Shown here: positions 13,856-26,237 of the stretch, piece by piece
Position numbering within the stretch: the first letter of the stretch is position 1
How the letters are laid out: each line of letters begins with the position of its first letter
From: Spiribacter vilamensis
GTDB lineage: Bacteria; Pseudomonadota; Gammaproteobacteria; Nitrococcales; Nitrococcaceae
Direction of reading: 5' to 3'
Assembly: GCF_004217415.1 (NCBI RefSeq)
Contig: NZ_SHLI01000001.1
Span: forward strand, 1-64,000
DNA: 64,000 bases
Made by a program: the position numbers and the translations under genes
The notes under the pieces: model-generated
Told to the model about the DNA's origin: nothing
Databases searched by the model: none
What the model saw: the letters and a program-made list of their open reading frames with translations, nothing else

Positions 13856-14836
13856 ATGAAGACACCTGTACGTGTAGCGGTCACCGGCGCCGCCGGCCAG
13901 ATCGGTTATAGCCTTCTATTTCGCATTGCCTCGGGCGATATGCTCGGGTCCGATCAGCCGGTGATCCTGCAGCTCCTCGAAGTGCCGCCGGCCATGGACG
14001 CCGTGCAGGGTGTCATGATGGAACTTGACGACTGCGCGTTTCCGCTGGTCGCCGGCCTGCAGGCGAGTGACAAGCCCGAAGAGGCATTCAAAGACGCTGA
14101 CTATATCCTCCTGGTAGGCGCCAAGCCGCGCGGACCGGGCATGGAGCGGAAGGATCTCCTCGAGGCGAATGCGGCGATCTTCTCCGGCCAGGGGCAGGCC
14201 ATGAATGCGGTGGCCAGCCGTGACGTGCGCGTTCTCGCCGTGGGCAATCCCGCGAACACGAATGCCCTGATCGCCCGGCATAACGCGCCGGATCTTGATC
14301 CGCGGTCATTCACCGCGATGACCCGCCTCGATCACAACCGCGCGCTGGCCCAGCTCGCGAATCGCACGGGCAGTCATGTCACCGGTATCGAGCGGTTGAC
14401 GGTCTGGGGTAATCACTCCGCCACGCAATACCCGGACATTACCCACGCGGTAGTGGATGGTAAGGCGGCCACCGAGCTGGTCGATCAGGACTGGCTTGAA
14501 GAGAGCTTTATTCCCACGGTTCAGCAGCGTGGCGCCGCCATCATCAAGGCCCGAGGCCAGTCAAGCGCCGCCTCTGCCGCCAGCGCCGCCATTGATCACA
14601 TGCGTGACTGGACGCTGGGGACGACGGGTGATGACTGGGTCAGCATGGCCATCTCCTCGGATGGTAGCTACGGCATCACCGAGGGGCTGATCTACTCATT
14701 CCCGGTTCGCTGCGTTGACGGGCGTTACGAGATCGTTCAGGGGCTCGAGATCAATGATTTCTCCCGCGAGCGCATGAGCGCCACCGAGCAGGAGCTTGTC
14801 GAGGAGCGTGACGCAGTCAAGCATCTGCTCCCCTGA
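13856..14836 (+). CDS. mdh: Malate dehydrogenase (NAD-dependent)
   Basis: 326 residues, the length of the cytosolic-type malate dehydrogenases found in many proteobacteria and actinobacteria rather than the 312-residue E. coli type. The Rossmann motif [20 protein letters not shown] is at residues 10-29, the nucleotide-binding [11 protein letters not shown] near 123-133, and the catalytic histidine in [12 protein letters not shown]. It oxidises malate to oxaloacetate in the TCA cycle in the cytoplasm. Preceded by GGAGG and a candidate -10. Its last 20 bases overlap tail-to-tail with uvrA on the other strand. Confidence 0.96.
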
Positions 14837-17654
14837 GCAACGGGGCGAGATAGCGACCGGTATGCGATTGCGGCTCCGTCGCGACGCTCTCCGGCGTGCC
14901 GGTCGCGATGATGCGGCCACCGCCTCCGCCACCCTCGGGTCCCAGGTCGATCAGCCAGTCGCAGGTCTTGATCACATCGAGGTTATGCTCGATGACCACC
15001 AGCGTGTTGCCCTCGTCGCGTAGTCGGTGCAGGACCTCGAGCAGCTGGGCGATGTCATGGAAATGCAGACCGGTGGTGGGTTCGTCGAGGATATAGAGCG
15101 TCTGCCCGGTGCTCTGGCGGGACAGCTCGCGCGCCAGCTTGATTCGCTGCGCCTCGCCACCGGAGAGGGTGACGGCGTTCTGACCGAGCTTGACGTAGCC
15201 CAGCCCCACCTCGACCAGCGTGCGCAGCTTGCGGGCGAGCGCCGGGATGCTCGAAAAGATCTCCAGGGCCTCGCCAACGCTCATCTCGAGTACATCGGCA
15301 ATGGTATGGCCGCGATAGCGGATCTCGAGTGTCTCGCGGTTGTAGCGGGCGCCCCGACAGGTGTCGCAGGGGACGTAGACATCCGGCAGGAAGTGCATGG
15401 CGACCCGGATCACCCCATCGCCCTGGCATGCCTCGCAACGCCCGCCGCGGACGTTGAAGCTGAAGCGCCCGGCGCCGTAGCCCCGTGAGCGGGCCTCGGC
15501 CGTGGCGGCGAAGAGTTCGCGAATCGGCGTGAAAAGCCCGGTATAGGTGGCGGGGTTGGAGCGCGGTGTCTTGCCGATGGGGCTCTGGTCGATATCCACG
15601 ACCTTGTCGAAATGCTCGAGCCCGTCGATGGCCTCGCAGTCCGCCGGCGCTGCGTCGGCGCGATTGAGCGCGGCGGCCGCGGCCGGGTACAGCGTGCCGT
15701 TGATCAAGGTCGACTTGCCCGAACCGGAGACACCGGTAATGCCGATCATCAGCCCTGCCGGGAGGCTCGCATCCACCGACTGCAGGTTATGCCCGCGAGC
15801 GCGGCGGATATGGATCATGCGCGCCGGATCGGGGGCGTTACGCTGTACCGGCACGGCGATTTGACGGCGACCGGCCAGATAATCACCGGTCAGCGAGCCC
15901 GGAGTATCCATCAGCGTGGCGGCGGTGCCAGCGGCGATCACCGCGCCGCCCTCGTGACCCGCGCCGGGACCCATGTCAACAATATAATCGGCGGCACGGA
16001 TGGCGTCCTCATCGTGCTCGACGACGATCACCGTATTATCCAGATCACGCAGATGCCGGAGTGTATCCAGCAGGCGGTTGTTATCGCGCTGGTGCAGCCC
16101 GATCGAGGGTTCATCGAGGACATACATCACCCCGACCAGTCCCGCGCCGATCTGGCTCGCTAGCCGGATCCGCTGCGCCTCGCCGCCGGACAGGGTATCG
16201 GCGCTGCGCTCCAGGCTCAGGTAATCGAGCCCCACGTTCACAAGGAACCGCAGACGCTGACCGATCTCGCGGAGGATGCTCTCGGCAATGGTGGCGCGGG
16301 CACCGGTCAGGTCCAGTTCCGCCATGACCCGGGCCGCCTCGCCGATGGACAGCGCGTTGATCCCCGCCACGTCGTAATCGGCTACGGTGACATGGCGCGC
16401 AGCCGCATTGAGGCGACTGCCATTGCAGTCCGGGCAGGTGCGGCGGGTCAGATAACGGGCCAGCTCATCGCGGACGGCCGTGGATTCGGTCTCGCGATAG
16501 CGGCGGGTCATATTGTTCAGCACACCCTCGAACGGATGCTCGCTGATCTGGCCACGACCCCGGCGGGCCCCGGCGTAATGGAACCGGATGAGCGTCTCGC
16601 CACTGCCGTAGAGAAGGATCTGTTGAATGTTCTCGGGCAGCGACCGCCACGGCGTATCGACATCGAACCCGTAATGGCTCGCCAGGTCGTTGATTATCTG
16701 GCCGTAGTAGGCGTTGCGACGATCCCAGCCGCGGACCGCACCGGCTGCCAGGGATAGCTCGGGATGGGCGACGACGCGCGCCGGATCGAAGAATTGCTCC
16801 ACGCCCAGCCCGTCACAGGTCGGACAGGCGCCCTGGGGGTTGTTGAAGGAGAAAAGCCGTGGCTCCAGCTCGGCGATGGCGTAGCCGCACTCGGGGCAGG
16901 CATAGCGCGCCGAGAATACCAGCGGCGGGTGATCGGCATCGTCGATATCGGCGAGCTCCGCAACATCGTCACCAAGCGCTAGACAGGTCTCCACCGAATC
17001 CGCCAGCCGGATCGCCAGGTCGGGCCGGATCCGGAAGCGGTCGACCACCACATCGATGTCGTGGGGGGTGTTGGCGTCGAGCGCGGGCAGTTCGTCGAGA
17101 TCCACCACCCGGCCGTCCACCCGTGCCCGCACGAACCCCTGGTTGCGCAAATCGGCGAATACCTCGCGCTGCTCGCCCTTGCGGCCGCGGATGCGGGGTG
17201 CGAGCAGCATGTAGCGCCGATCGTCGGGCTGGGCGAGGATCTGATCGACCATTTCGCTTACCGTTTGCGCCTCGAGCGCATGGCCATGGGTGGGACAGTG
17301 CGGCGTGCCGGCGCGGGCAAACAAAAGCCGCAGGTAGTCGTGGATCTCGGTGGCCGTCCCCACGGTGGAGCGCGGGTTGTGGGAGGTGGACTTCTGCTCG
17401 ATGGCGATCGCCGGTGACAACCCCTCGATATGGTCGACGTCGGGTTTGTCCATCATCGACAGGAACTGACGGGCGTAGGCCGAGAGTGATTCGACATAAC
17501 GCCGCTGGCCCTCGGCGTAGAGGGTGTCGAAGGCGAGCGACGACTTGCCGGAACCGGACAGCCCGGTGATGACGATCAGCTTGCCACGCGGCAGTGTGAG
17601 GTGCAGGTCGCGCAGGTTATGGGTACGCGCGCCTTCAATGACGATTGAGTCCAT
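14817..17654 (-). CDS. uvrA: Excinuclease ABC subunit A
   Basis: 945 residues from the ATG at 17654 ([20 protein letters not shown]). Two ABC ATPase modules are visible: Walker [10 protein letters not shown] at about 31-39 and GVSGSGKST in the second half, each with an LSGGEAQR signature. Zinc-binding cysteine pairs are in [26 protein letters not shown] and [16 protein letters not shown]. UvrA recognises bulky DNA damage and loads UvrB in nucleotide excision repair. The frame remains open 47 codons further upstream, but that part has no family similarity. The 3' end overlaps mdh by 20 bases. Confidence 0.97.
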
Positions 17655-17680
17655 GGGCTTCCCGGATCGGACAATTTGAT

Positions 17681-17686
17681 AGTATA
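17681..17686 (-). promoter_or_regulatory. Candidate -10 element of uvrA
   Basis: On the minus strand this reads TATACT, about 27 bases ahead of the uvrA ATG. No convincing -35 is seen at the proper spacing. I looked for a LexA-type CTGT-N8-ACAG box in the 67-base gap between uvrA and the divergent transporter gene and saw none. Confidence 0.4.
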
Positions 17687-17721
17687 GCGCGCCAGTACTC
17701 ACTCGACCGACAGGGGAAAAT

Positions 17722-18957
17722 GTGCACGGCAAAGAGCCATCCAGCGCCGGGTCGATGAATTCGGCGGAACGTCGGGCCACGGCGGGCCTCGCCACGATCT
17801 TTGGCCTGCGGATGCTGGGATTGTTCCTGATCCTCCCGGTCTTCGCGATTTACGGCACCGAGCTGACCGGGGCGACACCGGCGTTGATCGGGCTCGCCGT
17901 CGGCGCCTACGGGCTCACACAGGCCCTTCTGCAGATCCCGTTCGGCATGCTCTCGGATCGCATCGGGCGTCGGCCGGTGATCGTGTTCGGGCTTTTGATC
18001 TTCGCGCTCGGCAGTGGCGTGGCCGCCGAGGCGCAGAGCATTCATGGCGTGATCCTGGGACGGGCGTTGCAGGGCTGCGGCGCGATTGCCGCCGCCGTCA
18101 TGGCACTCGCCGCCGATCTGACCCGCGATCGGCAGCGCACCAAGTCCATGGCGGTCATCGGCATCAGCGTCGGGGCCGCGTTCATGATCGCGCTGGTGGC
18201 AGGGCCGGCGATTGCCGCCCAGGCCGGACTGGCCGGAGTCTTCTGGGCGACCGCCGGACTGGCACTGGTGGCGGTGGCCCTGCTCTACGGCCTCGTGCCG
18301 GCGGGTGGCGAGGTCGCCTTCCGACCCGAGGTCAACGCCCGCGCCGGGGGGCTGCCGATCGTGCTGCGCAGCCCCGATCTGCTGCGCCTGGACCTGGGCG
18401 TGCTGGTCCTGCACCTGGTGCTCACGGCGAGTTTCGTGGTCCTGCCGGTGGTGCTCGAGTCGCGGCTGGGGTTCGCCGGCGGCGATCACTGGAAGATCTA
18501 CATCCCGGTACTGGCGCTGTCGGTGCTGGGCATGGGGGCGCTGATCGGTATCGGCGAGCGGCGCCGGATCCTGCATCGGCTGCTGGCGTTCGTCGCTGCG
18601 CTGGTCATCATCGCCGATCTGATCCTGGCCGGATTCAGCCAGTCCCTGCCGGCGGTGCTGCTGGGGTTGTGGCTGTTTTTCGTGGGCTTTAACACCCTCG
18701 AAGCGAGCCTGCCCTCGCTTTTGACTCGATTCGCACCGGACGGCCTGCGCGGGACGGCGCTGGGCGTCTATTCCACGGCGCAGTTCCTGGGTGCCTTTCT
18801 GGGTGGTGTTCTCGGCGGCGCCATCCAGGGCGCGTATGGCGTGGGCGGCGTATTCATCTTTTGCGCACTGGCGGCGGGGGTGTGGCTGCTGGCCGCCGTC
18901 GGCCTGAGTGCCCCGGCCTCGTACCAGGAAACAACAACTCAAGCGGAGACGACATGA
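17722..18957 (+). CDS. Major facilitator superfamily transporter (uvrA-ssb locus type)
   Basis: 411 residues, 12 predicted membrane helices, starting from a GTG at 17722 with AGGGG 5 bases upstream; an in-frame ATG at 17755 lacks an RBS. Motif A of the MFS reads [16 protein letters not shown] at about residues 74-89. There is no extra C-terminal domain such as the YAM domain of YajR. A transporter of this type lies between uvrA and ssb in Pseudomonas and relatives, so the locus is conserved even though the substrate is unknown. The stop overlaps the sat-cysC start by four bases (ATGA). It may be a drug or metabolite exporter; nothing here fixes the substrate. Confidence 0.9.
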
Positions 18958-20725: not shown

Positions 20726-20783
20726 GGCAACACATGGCGGCGGTCACATCGACCCCGCCCCATCAGTCAACGGAGGCAGCGTC

Positions 20784-21263
20784 ATGGCACGTGGAGTCAA
20801 CAAGGTCATTCTTATCGGCAATCTCGGCGCCGATCCCGAGGTGCGCTATTCGGCGGCGGGAAGCGCCATTACCAACGCGCGACTCGCCACCACCGATCAG
20901 TGGAAGGACCGCCAGACCGGCGAGCAGCAGGAAAAGACGGAATGGCACCGGATCGTGTTCTTCGGTCGGCTGGCGGAGATCTCCGGTGAGTACCTGAAAA
21001 AGGGCTCGAAGATCTTCGTCGAGGGCCGGCTGCAGACCCGCAAGTGGCAGGGTCAGGACGGTACGGACAAGTTCACGACCGAGATCGTGGCGAACGACAT
21101 GCAGATGCTCGATGGCGCCGGTGGCGGCGGCATGGGTGGCGGAAGCATGGGCGGTGGCGCTGGCAGCGGCATGAAGCAGGGTGCCCCGGCACCGGCCGCC
21201 AGTCAGGAACCGGCTCCACAGACGGCGCCGGTGGATGATTTCGACGACGACATCCCGTTCTAG
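20784..21263 (+). CDS. ssb: Single-stranded DNA-binding protein
   Basis: 159 residues from the ATG at 20784, which has CGGAGG 7 bases upstream; an upstream in-frame ATG at 20724 has no homology. The OB fold covers about residues 1-110 ([20 protein letters not shown] at the start), then a glycine-rich linker, and the acidic tip DDFDDDIPF, the docking site for exonuclease I, RecO, PriA and other partners. SSB coats single-stranded DNA in replication and repair. The gene ends in an intrinsic terminator. Confidence 0.98.
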
Positions 21264-21298
21264 TCGCCACTTCATCCTCTTTTGTAGCAGATTCCTCC

Positions 21299-21327
21299 GA
21301 AGCCCCTGATGTCCCTGGGGCTTCTTT
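21299..21327 (+). terminator. Intrinsic terminator after ssb
   Basis: GAAGCCCC (21299-21306) pairs perfectly with GGGGCTTC (21317-21324) around a ten-base loop, followed by TTT. The U tract is short, but the 8-bp stem and the position 35 bases after the ssb stop support termination. Confidence 0.8.
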
Positions 21328-21339
21328 GCTTCCGGGACA

Positions 21340-22566
21340 ATGCGTCCAATGCTGACATCCAACCGCATCAAGGCCATCTGCGCCGCACGCATCCTATTGT
21401 TCGCGACCTTCATGACGGTGGCGGCCTGCATCCCCGTATTGATTGACGCCTGGGGGCTTAGTGGCGCTGCGGCCGGCGCCATCGTCTCCAGCTTTACGGC
21501 CGGCTATGCCGTGTCGCTATTTGTCTTCGGCTGGGCGGCGGATCATTTCGGCGCCCGTCGCATGGTTGAAATCTCCGCGGTGGCGGCCGCCATCACCAGT
21601 GCGGCCTTCGGATTCCTGGCGACGGACTGGTGGTCGGCGATGCTGCTGTACGGGGCAATCGGTCTGGCCCAGGGCGGCGTGTATACCCCCCTGATAATCG
21701 TGTTCTCCGACGAGGTGCCCACCGAACGTCGTGGCAAGGCGATGGGATGGCTGATTGCCTCTACCTCCGTGGGGTACGCCGTCTCGCTGGGTCTCTCGGC
21801 CGTGGGGATCGGCCTGGCGGGCTGGCAGGGGGCGTTTATGCTGACCGGCCTGTTACCGACGGCCGGCGCGGCGATCCTCGTCATCGCCCTGCGCGAATTA
21901 CCCAACCGGGTCCATGAGCGGCCCCCCCGTGCCCGACTGACCGAGGAGGTGGTGGGCAACCGCGGGGCGCGGCTGCTGATTACTGGCTACGTGGCCCATA
22001 ACTGGGAGCTGCTCGGCATGTGGGCATGGCTCCCGGCCTTCCTGGCTGCCGGCTTTGCCGTGAAGGGCGGCGAGCTGGCCGGGGCCAGCATCGCCGGTGC
22101 CTGGCTGGGCGGCGGGTTGCACCTGTTCGGCGCCACGGCCGCGCTCTCCATGGGGCATCTCTCGGATCGTACCGGGCAACGTCCCCTGCTGGTGGCGCTG
22201 GCGCTCCTTGGTGCGACGCTTTCGTTCACCATCGGATGGCTAGTGGTCGCCCCACCGATCCTGCTCGTCCCGCTGGCTCTGGCCTACGCCTTCGTCTGCC
22301 TGGGTGACTCGCCCATCCTCACCACGGCACTCGCCGAGCGTATCCGCCCCGGCTATCTCGGCGTCACTCTCGCTTGGCGCAGTCTGGCGGGTTTCAGCGC
22401 GGGGGCACTGGCGCCGGCCGCCTTCGGTGCAATGCTGGACCTGATCCGCTCCGCCGGCGGGGGCACAGTGATGGCCTGGGGTGGCAGTTTTCTACTACTG
22501 GGCCTCGGCGGCGCCATCGCCAGCGTCTGCGCCCTCCGCCTGCCTCCCGCCGGAGAGCAAAGATAA
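21340..22566 (+). CDS. Major facilitator superfamily transporter
   Basis: 408 residues with about 12 membrane helices. Motif A-like segment GWAADHFGARRMVEI lies between helices 2 and 3; the fourth-helix region has GAIGLAQGGVYTPLIIVFSD. Substrate unknown; the general look is of a small-molecule or cyanate/nitrate-type MFS carrier, but I cannot assign it. The ATG at 21340 is only 12 bases after the ssb terminator and lacks a good RBS; ATG 21349 is an alternative. The last 23 codons lie in a 69-base direct repeat whose second copy sits 439 bases downstream beyond the higA-like gene. Confidence 0.85.
   Translation: MRPMLTSNRIKAICAARILLFATFMTVAACIPVLIDAWGLSGAAAGAIVSSFTAGYAVSLFVFGWAADHFGARRMVEISAVAAAITSAAFGFLATDWWSAMLLYGAIGLAQGGVYTPLIIVFSDEVPTERRGKAMGWLIASTSVGYAVSLGLSAVGIGLAGWQGAFMLTGLLPTAGAAILVIALRELPNRVHERPPRARLTEEVVGNRGARLLITGYVAHNWELLGMWAWLPAFLAAGFAVKGGELAGASIAGAWLGGGLHLFGATAALSMGHLSDRTGQRPLLVALALLGATLSFTIGWLVVAPPILLVPLALAYAFVCLGDSPILTTALAERIRPGYLGVTLAWRSLAGFSAGALAPAAFGAMLDLIRSAGGGTVMAWGGSFLLLGLGGAIASVCALRLPPAGEQR
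22483..22551 (+). repeat. Direct repeat, copy 1 (3' end of MFS gene)
   Basis: Bases 22483-22551 match 22922-22990 at 61 of 69 positions by eye, with an uninterrupted 39-base identity at 22504-22542. The offset is exactly 439 bases with no gap. Here the repeat encodes the end of the MFS transporter (LGGAIASVCALRL). Confidence 0.9.
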
Positions 22567-22595
22567 GCTCGTCGATTACCATTAGGGAGTACCCC

Positions 22596-22910
22596 ATGCG
22601 CGAGATTGATCCGGTAACCCCGGGCGAGTTGCTGAAGGAGGAATTCCTCGACCCTATGGGGCTCTCTCAGTTTCGCCTCGCCAGGGAAATCGGCGTGCCG
22701 GCGCAGCGTATCGGGCAGATCATTGCGGGAAAACGCTCCGTAACGGCCGACACCGATTTGCGACTGTGTCGGTTCTTCGGGTTGAGCAATGGTTACTGGC
22801 TCCGGGCGCAGGCGGCGTACGACACTGAAGTGACGGAGGAAGCGCTGGCCGATCAGCTGAGCCGTATCCGGCCCTGGAACACAGACTTACCCAGGGACCA
22901 CGGGGCATAG
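22596..22910 (+). CDS. HigA-family antitoxin, apparently without its toxin
   Basis: 104 residues from the ATG at 22596 with a GGGAG RBS. It starts MREIDPVTPGELLKEEFLDP and has an XRE helix-turn-helix at about residues 22-50 (GLSQFRLAREIGVPAQRIGQ, then IIAGKRSVTADT), then RFFGLSNGYWLRAQAAYDTE, the full signature of HigA/VapI-type antitoxins that bind the higBA promoter and the HigB RNase. Only 29 bases separate it from the MFS gene, so there is no room for higB upstream, and nothing toxin-like follows. Function is inferred: an orphan antitoxin or a regulator. It lies between the two copies of the direct repeat. Confidence 0.88.
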   Translation: MREIDPVTPGELLKEEFLDPMGLSQFRLAREIGVPAQRIGQIIAGKRSVTADTDLRLCRFFGLSNGYWLRAQAAYDTEVTEEALADQLSRIRPWNTDLPRDHGA

Positions 22911-22921
22911 TCTACCAAGAC

Positions 22922-23002
22922 GGTAGCTCTCCACTACTGCGTCTCGGCGGCGCCATCGCCAGCGTCTGCGCCCTCCGCCTGACTTCCGCCAACCGGGTCT
23001 GA
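22922..23002 (+). pseudogene. 3' fragment of an MFS transporter gene (repeat copy 2)
   Basis: Read on the plus strand this stretch encodes GSSPLLRLGGAIASVCALRL followed by TSANRV and a TGA stop at 23000-23002, against GSFLLLGLGGAIASVCALRL in the intact transporter 439 bases upstream. It has no start codon and no upstream coding, so it is a remnant. Bases 22922-22990 are copy 2 of the direct repeat. On the minus strand most of it encodes the C-terminus of the acyl ligase. Confidence 0.6.
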
Positions 23003-25636
23003 CGCCGTAGTGCTCGGCCCCAGTGCCGCCATTGCCTGACTGACCGAGTCAACGATCACCCGGCTGTCCTCGCCGTAATCCTCGGGTAACAGCGGCTCGC
23101 CGATGCGAATTCGGATGGTGCCCCGCTGCGGGATGAGCTGACCGACGGGCAGCACCGAGTCCGTCCCGTCGATCCAGACCGGCACCACTGGGACGGGATG
23201 CGCCGCGAGCAGGAGGCCGATGCCCGGGCGCAGGGGTTGTAGCTCGCCATCCCGGCCGCGCTGTCCCTCCGGGAACCAGACCAGGGAATGGCCGCGTTGC
23301 AGCGTCGCGGTGGCCAGCGCCAGGCTCCGTTGCGGTGCTGCCCCCGGATCGATGGGCAGAATCCGCGCGATATGGCTGAAGCCCCGGCGCAGGGCCGACG
23401 AAAACAACAGCCCCGTCCACCCGGCCCAGAACAGCGGCTCGATCTGGCGGCGGGTCAGGCTGTCGGTGAGGGCGACGGGGTCGTAGGCGCTGATATGCCG
23501 GGGCGTGATGAGGAACGGACCGTTCTGCGGCCACTCCCCCTCGACCTCGATATGCGCGAAGCGCCGATTGATGGCCCGGCAGCCACCCAGGGCCAGCCTG
23601 GCCGTAGCGTAGCGGAACGGGCCGCGGGGCGTCAGCAGTTGCTTTGATGACTCATCGAGCAGTGCCTCCGGTGCGGCCAGCTGCTCGATCAGCGTTGTCG
23701 GTCCCTCCCCGGTACCCGCGATCGCGGCGGGGTCGGCCTGAATCACCTCCTGGAGGAGGTCACGCACGGTCTCCACCCGGCCGATGGCGGCATCGTCGAG
23801 CTCGATCCCGGCCTGATCGCGCAGTCCCAGGCCCAGATCCATCCAGCCGAGGGAGTCGAGCCCCAGGTCCTGATGGAGTCGGCTGTCCGGAGTGAGCCGT
23901 TTGTTCGCGAAACGCTCGGCAAGATACTCCCAGGTGGCCAGGGCCGCCTCGTCGGCCAGCAGGGCCTGGTCCTCCGGCGCCATGGCTTCGGCGTCGATCG
24001 GTGCCTGGAGTGTCTCTGGCTGCTCTTCGCCGAGGCTGTCGAAAAGCGTCGCCAGGTGGGGACGGCGCAGTTTGCCAAGGCGGGTCCGGGGCAGGGGATC
24101 GACGCTCAGCCGGATCTCGCCCACCGCGTGATGGGCCGGGAGATCGGCCCGGGCGGCACGGAGCGCGGCATTGACTCGCTCTTGCCGTGCGTCCGGCGAA
24201 TCATCCGTGTCGGCGGCCACGATCACGGCGGCGAGCCGACCGTCGCGCGCCAGGACCCCCGCCTCGCGGATGGCCGGCTGGGCGTTCAACACCCGCTCGA
24301 TACGTTCCGGGTCGATGTTCTCACCGCCCGAGAGCACGACGGTGGATGAGAGTCGACCGCTGAGATGCAGGTAACCGTCATCGTCGATCTGGCCACCATC
24401 CCCGGTGCGGAACCAGCCCTCGGCGTCGAAGATTTCGTCGTTGGGTACAACGCTATGCCGGTAACCGGTGAAGACGTTCGGGCCCCGGGCACGAACCTCG
24501 CCATCGACAATGCGCAGCGACACGCCGGGCAGCGGGCGACCCGCGGTCTCGAGTCGTCCATCGCCCGGGGCGTTGAGGGTGAGGATCGGTGCCGTCTCGG
24601 TCAGGCCGTAGCCACTCGCGAGCCTCCAGCCCAGGCCCTGAAGACGTCGGGCAATGGTCGGATCCAGTGCCGCACCGCCGTTCACCGCCAGGCGCAACGA
24701 GGGTGCGAGGCGCTTCATGACCGGTCGGAACAGCCAACGCCCGATCGGCCAGCCGAGACGTGCCTGGAGCCGCTGGCAGGTGTCGACGCTGGCATGGAAG
24801 AGCCGTTGCCGCCAGGGCTGCTGGCCGCCCAGGCGTGCCTCGAGCCGACTCCACAGCGCTTCGTAGAGCCGCGGGACGCCGAGCAGGATGGTCGCGCGGC
24901 CCGCCCGCAGGGCCTCGGCGATGCGCGGGCCCACCAGTGAGCGCGGCAGGATCAGCGTCGCGCCAGTGCCCATCACCGTGAGTAGCCCGACGCTGAACGG
25001 ATAGACGTGATGCAGCGGCAGGGGTAACAGCACCCGGTCTTCCGGCCCGGCGATACGCTCTTCGAGCAGGGCGCGAACGTTGCTGACCAGATTGGCGTGG
25101 GTGAGCGGCACGCCCTTCGGTGGGCCGGTTGTCCCCGAGGTGTAGAACAGGGTGGCAATGTCGGCGGCATCGGGGTCGTCGCGCGGCGCCGAGTCGGCAG
25201 GCTCATCGTCCGTCACTGTCAGCGACAGTGAGTCGATCTCGATGACGGGCGCCGTGGGCGATGGTTCCGGCAGGGCGGCGCGCAGCGCCCGGGTGATGTA
25301 GATCCGTGCCGGATCGGCGTCGGCGATGACGTGGGCGAGGTCTTCGCGGCCCATCTGGGCGTCCACCGGGACCAGGACGGCCCCGTGCATCAGGGTGGCG
25401 AGGGCGATGACGATCCACTCGACGCCGTTGGGCGCCTGAATCAGCACCCGGTCGCCGCGACCGATCCCGGCATCGCCCAGGGTCTGTGCATGGGCCTCGG
25501 CCATGGCCAGCAGGCGCTGCCGCTCAAGGGTCACCGGCCCTTTGGCCGTATAAGCGATCAAAGCGGCCTTCTGCGCGCTCCCCGGTGCCGTTCGGAGGAG
25601 GGCGGGGATTGTCAGGCGCTCGGCGTCGGCCGCCAT
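22934..25636 (-). CDS. AMP-dependent acyl ligase - acyl carrier - acyltransferase fusion
   Basis: 900 residues. Residues 1-530 are an ANL adenylating enzyme: FYTSGTTGPPKG (164-175), YGLTET (343-348), RTGD (410-413) and a catalytic-type lysine in TRLGK (522). Residues 555-640 are a carrier domain with the phosphopantetheine serine in GLDSL (S595). Residues 690-870 are a PlsC-type acyltransferase with the HX4D motif HISAYD (714-719) and FPEGQRG (788-794). It should activate a fatty acid, hold it on its own carrier and pass it to a lysophospholipid or other acceptor; the acceptor is unknown. It resembles Aas in content but has the acyltransferase at the C-terminus. It starts one base after the HAD gene. 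The last 19 codons are in repeat copy 2. Confidence 0.9.
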   Translation of the reverse strand: MAADAERLTIPALLRTAPGSAQKAALIAYTAKGPVTLERQRLLAMAEAHAQTLGDAGIGRGDRVLIQAPNGVEWIVIALATLMHGAVLVPVDAQMGREDLAHVIADADPARIYITRALRAALPEPSPTAPVIEIDSLSLTVTDDEPADSAPRDDPDAADIATLFYTSGTTGPPKGVPLTHANLVSNVRALLEERIAGPEDRVLLPLPLHHVYPFSVGLLTVMGTGATLILPRSLVGPRIAEALRAGRATILLGVPRLYEALWSRLEARLGGQQPWRQRLFHASVDTCQRLQARLGWPIGRWLFRPVMKRLAPSLRLAVNGGAALDPTIARRLQGLGWRLASGYGLTETAPILTLNAPGDGRLETAGRPLPGVSLRIVDGEVRARGPNVFTGYRHSVVPNDEIFDAEGWFRTGDGGQIDDDGYLHLSGRLSSTVVLSGGENIDPERIERVLNAQPAIREAGVLARDGRLAAVIVAADTDDSPDARQERVNAALRAARADLPAHHAVGEIRLSVDPLPRTRLGKLRRPHLATLFDSLGEEQPETLQAPIDAEAMAPEDQALLADEAALATWEYLAERFANKRLTPDSRLHQDLGLDSLGWMDLGLGLRDQAGIELDDAAIGRVETVRDLLQEVIQADPAAIAGTGEGPTTLIEQLAAPEALLDESSKQLLTPRGPFRYATARLALGGCRAINRRFAHIEVEGEWPQNGPFLITPRHISAYDPVALTDSLTRRQIEPLFWAGWTGLLFSSALRRGFSHIARILPIDPGAAPQRSLALATATLQRGHSLVWFPEGQRGRDGELQPLRPGIGLLLAAHPVPVVPVWIDGTDSVLPVGQLIPQRGTIRIRIGEPLLPEDYGEDSRVIVDSVSQAMAALGPSTTASDPVGGSQAEGADAGDGAAETQ

Positions 25637-25637
25637 C

Positions 25638-26237
25638 TCAGCGCAGTCCCCGGTAGGTTGCGTGATCGGCCAGTGCCAGCATCTCGGTGTCCCCCGCGGT
25701 GTCGCCGTAGGCATAGATCGGATGATACTCGGCGGGGTCGAGCAATGCCCGCAGGCGCTCGACTTTCTCCGGGCCGCGACAGTTGCGGCCCGCCAGATCG
25801 CCGGTGAGCCGACCGTTGCGGCGCTCCATGTGTGTTGCCAGCAGCTCGATGCCGAGGGAGTCGGTCCAGGGCCGCAGCCATTCGCTGATGGATGCCGATA
25901 TGACCACCACCCGATGGCCGGCCTGGCGGTGCCAGTCGAGTCGCTCCCGGGCCAGGGGTCGGAGTAGCGAATCGAGGTGATTGAGCGCGTAGTCCCGGCC
26001 GATGGCCCGGAACGTCTCGTCCGCCATCCCGCCGAAGAAGTGGCGTAGCAGATGGACTTTGGCGTGATCGCGATGGACGGCGCCCACCGGCACGCCCAGC
26101 AGCGACGGGGCAAGACTCACACTCGCGGCGAGGCAGCGCGTGACACCGAACTGCCTGAGCAACAGGTCGCTGAGCGTATCCCGTCGAGTCAGCGTTCCAT
26201 CCATATCAAACAGGGCCAGAGGGCCGGAATCGGGCAT
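25638..26237 (-). CDS. HAD-IB family phosphatase
   Basis: 199 residues from the ATG at 26237, preceded by AGGGAG. Motif I is FDMDGTLT (D11, D13), motif II the serine in VVISAS, and motif III the lysine/aspartates around YAYGDTAGDTEM near the end, so the catalytic set of a SerB-like (subfamily IB) hydrolase is complete. The FGV..CLAASVSLAPSLLGVPVG segment is the helical cap. Substrate is unknown; phosphoserine, lysophosphatidate or another phosphomonoester are possible. It is the first gene of a two-gene unit with the acyl ligase, one base apart, which suggests a role in lipid phosphate metabolism. Confidence 0.9.
   Translation of the reverse strand: MPDSGPLALFDMDGTLTRRDTLSDLLLRQFGVTRCLAASVSLAPSLLGVPVGAVHRDHAKVHLLRHFFGGMADETFRAIGRDYALNHLDSLLRPLARERLDWHRQAGHRVVVISASISEWLRPWTDSLGIELLATHMERRNGRLTGDLAGRNCRGPEKVERLRALLDPAEYHPIYAYGDTAGDTEMLALADHATYRGLR

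Follow-up and report, generated by a model that had tools for sequence, protein, structure and literature searches.

An orphan higA between two copies of a transporter gene end in Spiribacter vilamensis, read as a two-step insertion scar

How could an antitoxin gene come to lie between two copies of the 3' end of a transporter gene, at a site where a convergent ligase gene also ends, and leave both neighbors intact? This layout occurs in the first 64,000 nucleotides of contig NZ_SHLI01000001.1 of Spiribacter vilamensis, the stretch of DNA analyzed here and called the window below. A direct repeat on the forward strand, at 22483 to 22551 (copy 1) and 22922 to 22990 (copy 2), has 61 identical bases out of 69 in an ungapped alignment, 39 of them forming an uninterrupted core (22504 to 22542). 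The eight mismatches fall at offsets 2, 5, 7, 10, 18, 20, 60, and 63, and the segment between the copies is 370 bases long. In a blastn self-comparison of the window this was the strongest repeat (E value of 5e-17), the sole other self-match listed at an E value of 0.01 or below lying inside an open reading frame at 14817 to 17795 (E value of 0.001).

Copy 1 lies inside the 3' end of a major facilitator superfamily (MFS) transporter gene (21340 to 22566, forward strand, PF07690) and encodes the C terminus of the protein, with the TAA stop codon at 22564 to 22566. In the same frame, copy 2 encodes a matching fragment that ends at a TGA at 23000 to 23002, while on the opposite strand it carries the last codons of an AMP-binding/acyltransferase ligase gene (22934 to 25648, reverse strand; PF00501, PF00550, and PF01553), whose stop codon at 22934 to 22936 falls within the repeat. 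The stretch from 22934 to 23002 is read in both directions, as the MFS remnant frame on the forward strand and the ligase tail on the reverse strand. The gene between the copies, on the forward strand at 22596 to 22910, matches the HigA family model TIGR02607 with 94.5 bits against a cutoff of 47.7. A sequence-only reading of this DNA had reported the same repeat coordinates and identity, a higA-like gene between the copies, and the same assignment of each copy to the MFS and ligase ends, all of which were reproduced.

Comparison with related genomes placed this arrangement at a junction that is simpler elsewhere. The left neighbor of the MFS gene is ssb (20781 to 21263, forward strand, PF00436), and a terminator-like stem lies between the two at 21304 to 21320, one such site being about what shuffled sequence gives. 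In all 13 congeners ssb and the ligase gene are convergent on one contig, and in none of them does MFS or higA lie in between. The two stop codons are −4 to +10 bases apart in eight of the 13, overlapping by 4 bases in G001, G005, G006, G007, and G011 (the four-base overlap is seen at loci L122, L125, L126, L129, and L130) and standing 7 to 10 bases apart in G003, G004, and G013; the other five have a different insert. Stop-to-stop distance, measured in 12 of the 13 congeners (for G002 only the ssb end is on the contig and the stop was not located), reached 807 bases in G012 and 2.5 to 2.6 kb in G008, G009, and G010. The G012 insert is a toxin-antitoxin pair of the HI1419/HI1420 type (L121, 199 to 837), and a P-type ATPase gene occupies the junction in G002, G008, G009, and G010, its stop codon overlapping that of ssb in G008 (L124, 755 to 3406; the gene is seen also at loci L123, L128, and L132). 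Such inserts in five of 13 congeners indicate that the ssb/ligase junction takes up genes repeatedly, which favors an insertion at this site in S. vilamensis as well.

Nucleotide homology to the three nearest congeners (G001, G013, and G012) stops at 21263 and resumes at 23012 to 23019, delimiting a block of about 1.75 kb (21264 to 23012, the right edge being approximate) that holds the MFS gene, higA, and a second, drifted copy of the 3' end of that MFS gene. The block is absent from all 13 congeners and represents either a gain in the lineage of S. vilamensis or a loss in all 13 others. No close MFS homolog was found in any of the 13; four of them have weak MFS matches at other genomic sites, and HigA homologs of the congeners sit at places other than the ssb/ligase junction. 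The earlier proposal of an insertion scar, in which copy 2 is a leftover MFS 3' end, is supported.

Which of the two copies is closer to the original could be judged from a close MFS homolog (78%), found in one of 22 other family genomes searched (G017) and located at a different place. At the eight differences between the copies, copy 1 has the base shared with this homolog at six, copy 2 at one, and neither copy at the remaining one. Copy 2 also carries nonconservative changes, probably within the last membrane helix predicted for the transporter. The shared bases in copy 1 and the nonconservative changes in copy 2 suggest that copy 2 is the decayed copy. This polarity speaks against replacement by a whole allele, which the sequence-only reading had offered as an alternative; the differences look like decay of copy 2, and allele replacement is not favored.

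A broader form of that alternative is that MFS, the higB tail described below, higA, and the MFS remnant were assembled elsewhere and entered in one piece by homologous or illegitimate recombination. No piece of the block is present at the junction in any of the 13 congeners, so a single event would be enough. However, no donor with such a layout was found: no HigA was seen among the open reading frames of the 4.2-kb MFS locus of G017, which was read by eye, and the further relatives compared are at most 61% identical. In addition, a mere 10 bases or so separate the stop codon of the MFS remnant from the point where ligase homology begins, as expected had the MFS end already abutted the ligase gene. 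We consider such a ready-made import rather unlikely.

The reverse strand of the repeat bears on what the junction looked like before higA arrived. Both copies carry the ligase stop triplet, at 22495 to 22497 and 22934 to 22936, and the antisense (ligase) frame is open through both, so that in the pre-insertion state the ligase frame would have terminated inside the MFS 3' end. The tail-to-tail overlap of MFS and ligase genes postulated in the sequence-only reading is thus supported for the state preceding higA, but the older partner of the ligase gene is ssb, not MFS. Homology of the ligase protein to its congeners ends at residue 876 to 883 of 904, from which roughly the last 25 codons are new; they appear to come from the gained block, supplied by the second copy of the MFS 3' end.

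A second line of evidence concerns the origin of the insert itself. Just upstream of higA, in a different frame, the forward strand encodes four codons and a stop (VDYH-stop, 22571 to 22585), separated from the higA start by 10 bases. DNA homology with locus L136 starts exactly at 22571, and in L136, L164, and L172, where higB is intact, the gene ends in VDYH or IDYH with an equal 10-base spacing to higA. On the basis of this shared ending and spacing, and of the L136 homology beginning there, we take VDYH-stop to be the tail of a lost higB. This remnant is a new point of the present analysis, and it ties the insert to a toxin-antitoxin module; a higB tail at the canonical distance is also in keeping with an insertion. 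A HigBA system has higB directly upstream of higA, and here only the four codons and the stop are left. A PF05015 search found no HigB-like toxin in the genome, the same search being positive in 4 of 14 control genomes. The genome holds a second weak HigA-like stretch (L045, C1:1191215-1191439), 36% identical and with an internal stop codon.

The edges of the homology help to separate insertion from rearrangement in place. Across the segment with the higB tail and higA the repeat scored 46, whereas the best of 30 shuffles reached 13, and the homology between the copies ends at 22551 and 22990, just short of that segment, as an insert predicts. Duplications and deletions are common events, and an alternative is that the gene end was duplicated locally in tandem and then trimmed by deletions, higA having come in with MFS as a bystander. 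Under that history the homology has no reason to halt near the start of the higB tail instead of running into it, and several separate deletions would be required; we regard it as very unlikely. Copy 1 and the higB tail are separated by 19 bases to which no source is assigned, which counts against the insertion scar.

Whether higB was lost before or after arrival is a separate matter. The best HigA relative among the genomes searched, at L135, is 85% identical, and its higA (1501 to 1815) has no higB directly upstream, a pair of the HI1419/HI1420 type being there instead; likewise L137 (higA at 1501 to 1815) has a CopG-type antitoxin there, and L173 has no higB end upstream of higA. That these close relatives also lack higB weighs against the insertion scar as we draw it, since it allows higB to have been lost before arrival. 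Between the higA of the window and that of L135, 45 differing codons are synonymous and 16 nonsynonymous, indicating that higA was constrained for most of its history, which does not imply present use here. The orphan HigA probably persists as a predicted DNA-binding protein without a local toxin. Other HigA relatives occur on plasmid and viral DNA: L164 is a 1,983-base Marinobacter plasmid with a 77% identical higA, a higB end upstream, a YoeB/YefM-type pair, and a cupin gene, and L165 is a viral contig with a 56% identical HigA. As for an integron-cassette origin, marked by an attC-type imperfect inverted repeat behind the gene, no hairpin following higA was present among the 25 inverted-repeat pairs listed out of 44. 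After the higA of L164 there is a stretch that resembles the attC consensus, but its predicted folding is just modestly better than that of shuffles, with a z score of −1.73 and 11 of 200 shuffles equally good.

The explanation that we find best, with somewhat better than even confidence, is an insertion scar formed in two steps. First, an MFS gene would have been gained at the tight ssb/ligase junction, after which the ligase frame extended antisense through the MFS 3' end. A higBA-bearing segment would then have inserted into the MFS/ligase overlap, so that 69 or more bases of target came to lie on each side of it. All but the last few codons of the MFS frame would have been kept in copy 1, and the complete ligase 3' end in copy 2, duplication of the overlap thereby leaving both genes intact. 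Later, higB may have been deleted down to its final codons, and copy 2, freed from being read as MFS, may have drifted. The order of the steps, the origin of the duplication with the insertion, and the loss of higB after rather than before arrival are what we infer from these observations. Flanking of the unit by a direct repeat of target DNA agrees with such a history, the word "target" resting on the position of copy 1 in the coding end of MFS. The convergent ssb and ligase genes that lack MFS and higA in 13 of 13 congeners, and the ancestral-like state of copy 1 at six of the eight differences against one for copy 2, also favor it. The pre-insertion state, MFS with a single copy of the repeat, was not found among the 13 congeners, all of which lack MFS.

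Distribution of the mismatches counts against this history in its simplest form. All of them lie outside the 39-base core, and clustering this strong arises in 0.8% of random placements; the core has been spared more than random drift would spare it, which duplication followed by drift leaves unexplained. Such clustering argues against plain drift; gene conversion between the copies or a collapsed integrative element might account for it. Att sites are commonly found at gene 3' ends, and in a collapsed element site-specific integration at the MFS 3' end would have produced att-like copies on each side, with everything from the left end of the element into higB lost later, so that higA and the two copies were left. 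A clean core with differences outside it resembles att sites, and higB is truncated from its upstream side. No integrase was noticed, however, when the open reading frames at 17 to 29 kb were read by eye, and at the two differences beyond the right edge of the core it is again copy 1 that has the ancestral-like base, although a crossover between att sites in the core would leave copy 2 with the native end. We judge a collapsed element unlikely. For the mechanism, a long target duplication, a collapsed element, and a ready-made import are the candidates that we infer, and the insertion scar remains the reading followed here.

A 439-base unit had also been suggested to be a small mobile cassette. 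A 621-base query around the repeat found a single place in the 2.08-Mb genome, which gives no support to a cassette that is currently mobile. Flanking direct repeats were scored at other HigA loci as well. Eight of 40 had one that outscored all 30 of their own shuffles, four by one point (L035, L046, L138, and L147) and four clearly (L135, L139, L144, and L160); loci L141, L143, and L148 were left out as too short, and L042 and L045 were not entered. At a score of 20 or more, a comparison from which L161 was also left out as too short, 4 of 39 HigA loci qualified versus 0 of 81 control loci (28 MFS, 28 ligase, and 25 ssb). On these counts the HigA loci do exceed the controls. The L139 repeat is dispersed, with six places in its genome; those of L135 and L160 resemble short repetitive elements, and that of L144 resembles paralogous antitoxin coding sequence, as judged from their bases. 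A general tendency of higA toward flanking target duplication was rejected, no second case being counted, and the scar stands as a single well-resolved case.

Most likely the locus is the scar of an old insertion, a neat but fairly ordinary instance of gene traffic. It illustrates that tail-to-tail overlapping genes can admit foreign DNA with neither gene lost, and that decay of a toxin-antitoxin module can leave an orphan antitoxin beside a recognizable stub of its toxin.

Three known situations resemble this locus. Integrative elements insert at the 3' ends of genes, and as with them a coding 3' end is duplicated, the gene is kept in frame, and a displaced remnant lies on the far side; in contrast, no recombinase was noticed nearby by eye, and only 370 bases separate the copies. 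In the deep-sea set for which PMC12654330 gives counts, orphan HigA-1 is the most abundant orphan antitoxin (163 of 526). The chromosomal orphans in that account share with ours a HigA without a neighboring HigB, but in our case one can still see what is left of higB, together with the surrounding repeats. The closest known process, by analogy, appears to be insertion with long target duplication, a route put forward for restriction-modification systems (Nobusato 2000 and Furuta 2010, as cited in PMC3031569 and PMC3874152). As these citing papers outline it, the likeness is a small addiction-type unit with directly repeated target DNA on either side and no transposase seen; what differs here is that the unit is a toxin-antitoxin remnant without its toxin, that the repeat sits where two gene ends overlap, and that no empty-site relative was found among the congeners. 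Our literature search found no paper that combines toxin-antitoxin, target duplication, direct repeats, and higBA, whereas long target duplication and toxin-antitoxin occur together in five. A bolder reading by the same analogy, which we consider unlikely, is that small modules such as higBA can move as self-contained units with long target duplications and so enter overlapping gene ends without breaking them. If that route were shown for toxin-antitoxin modules generally, their spread would be linked to that of restriction-modification systems.
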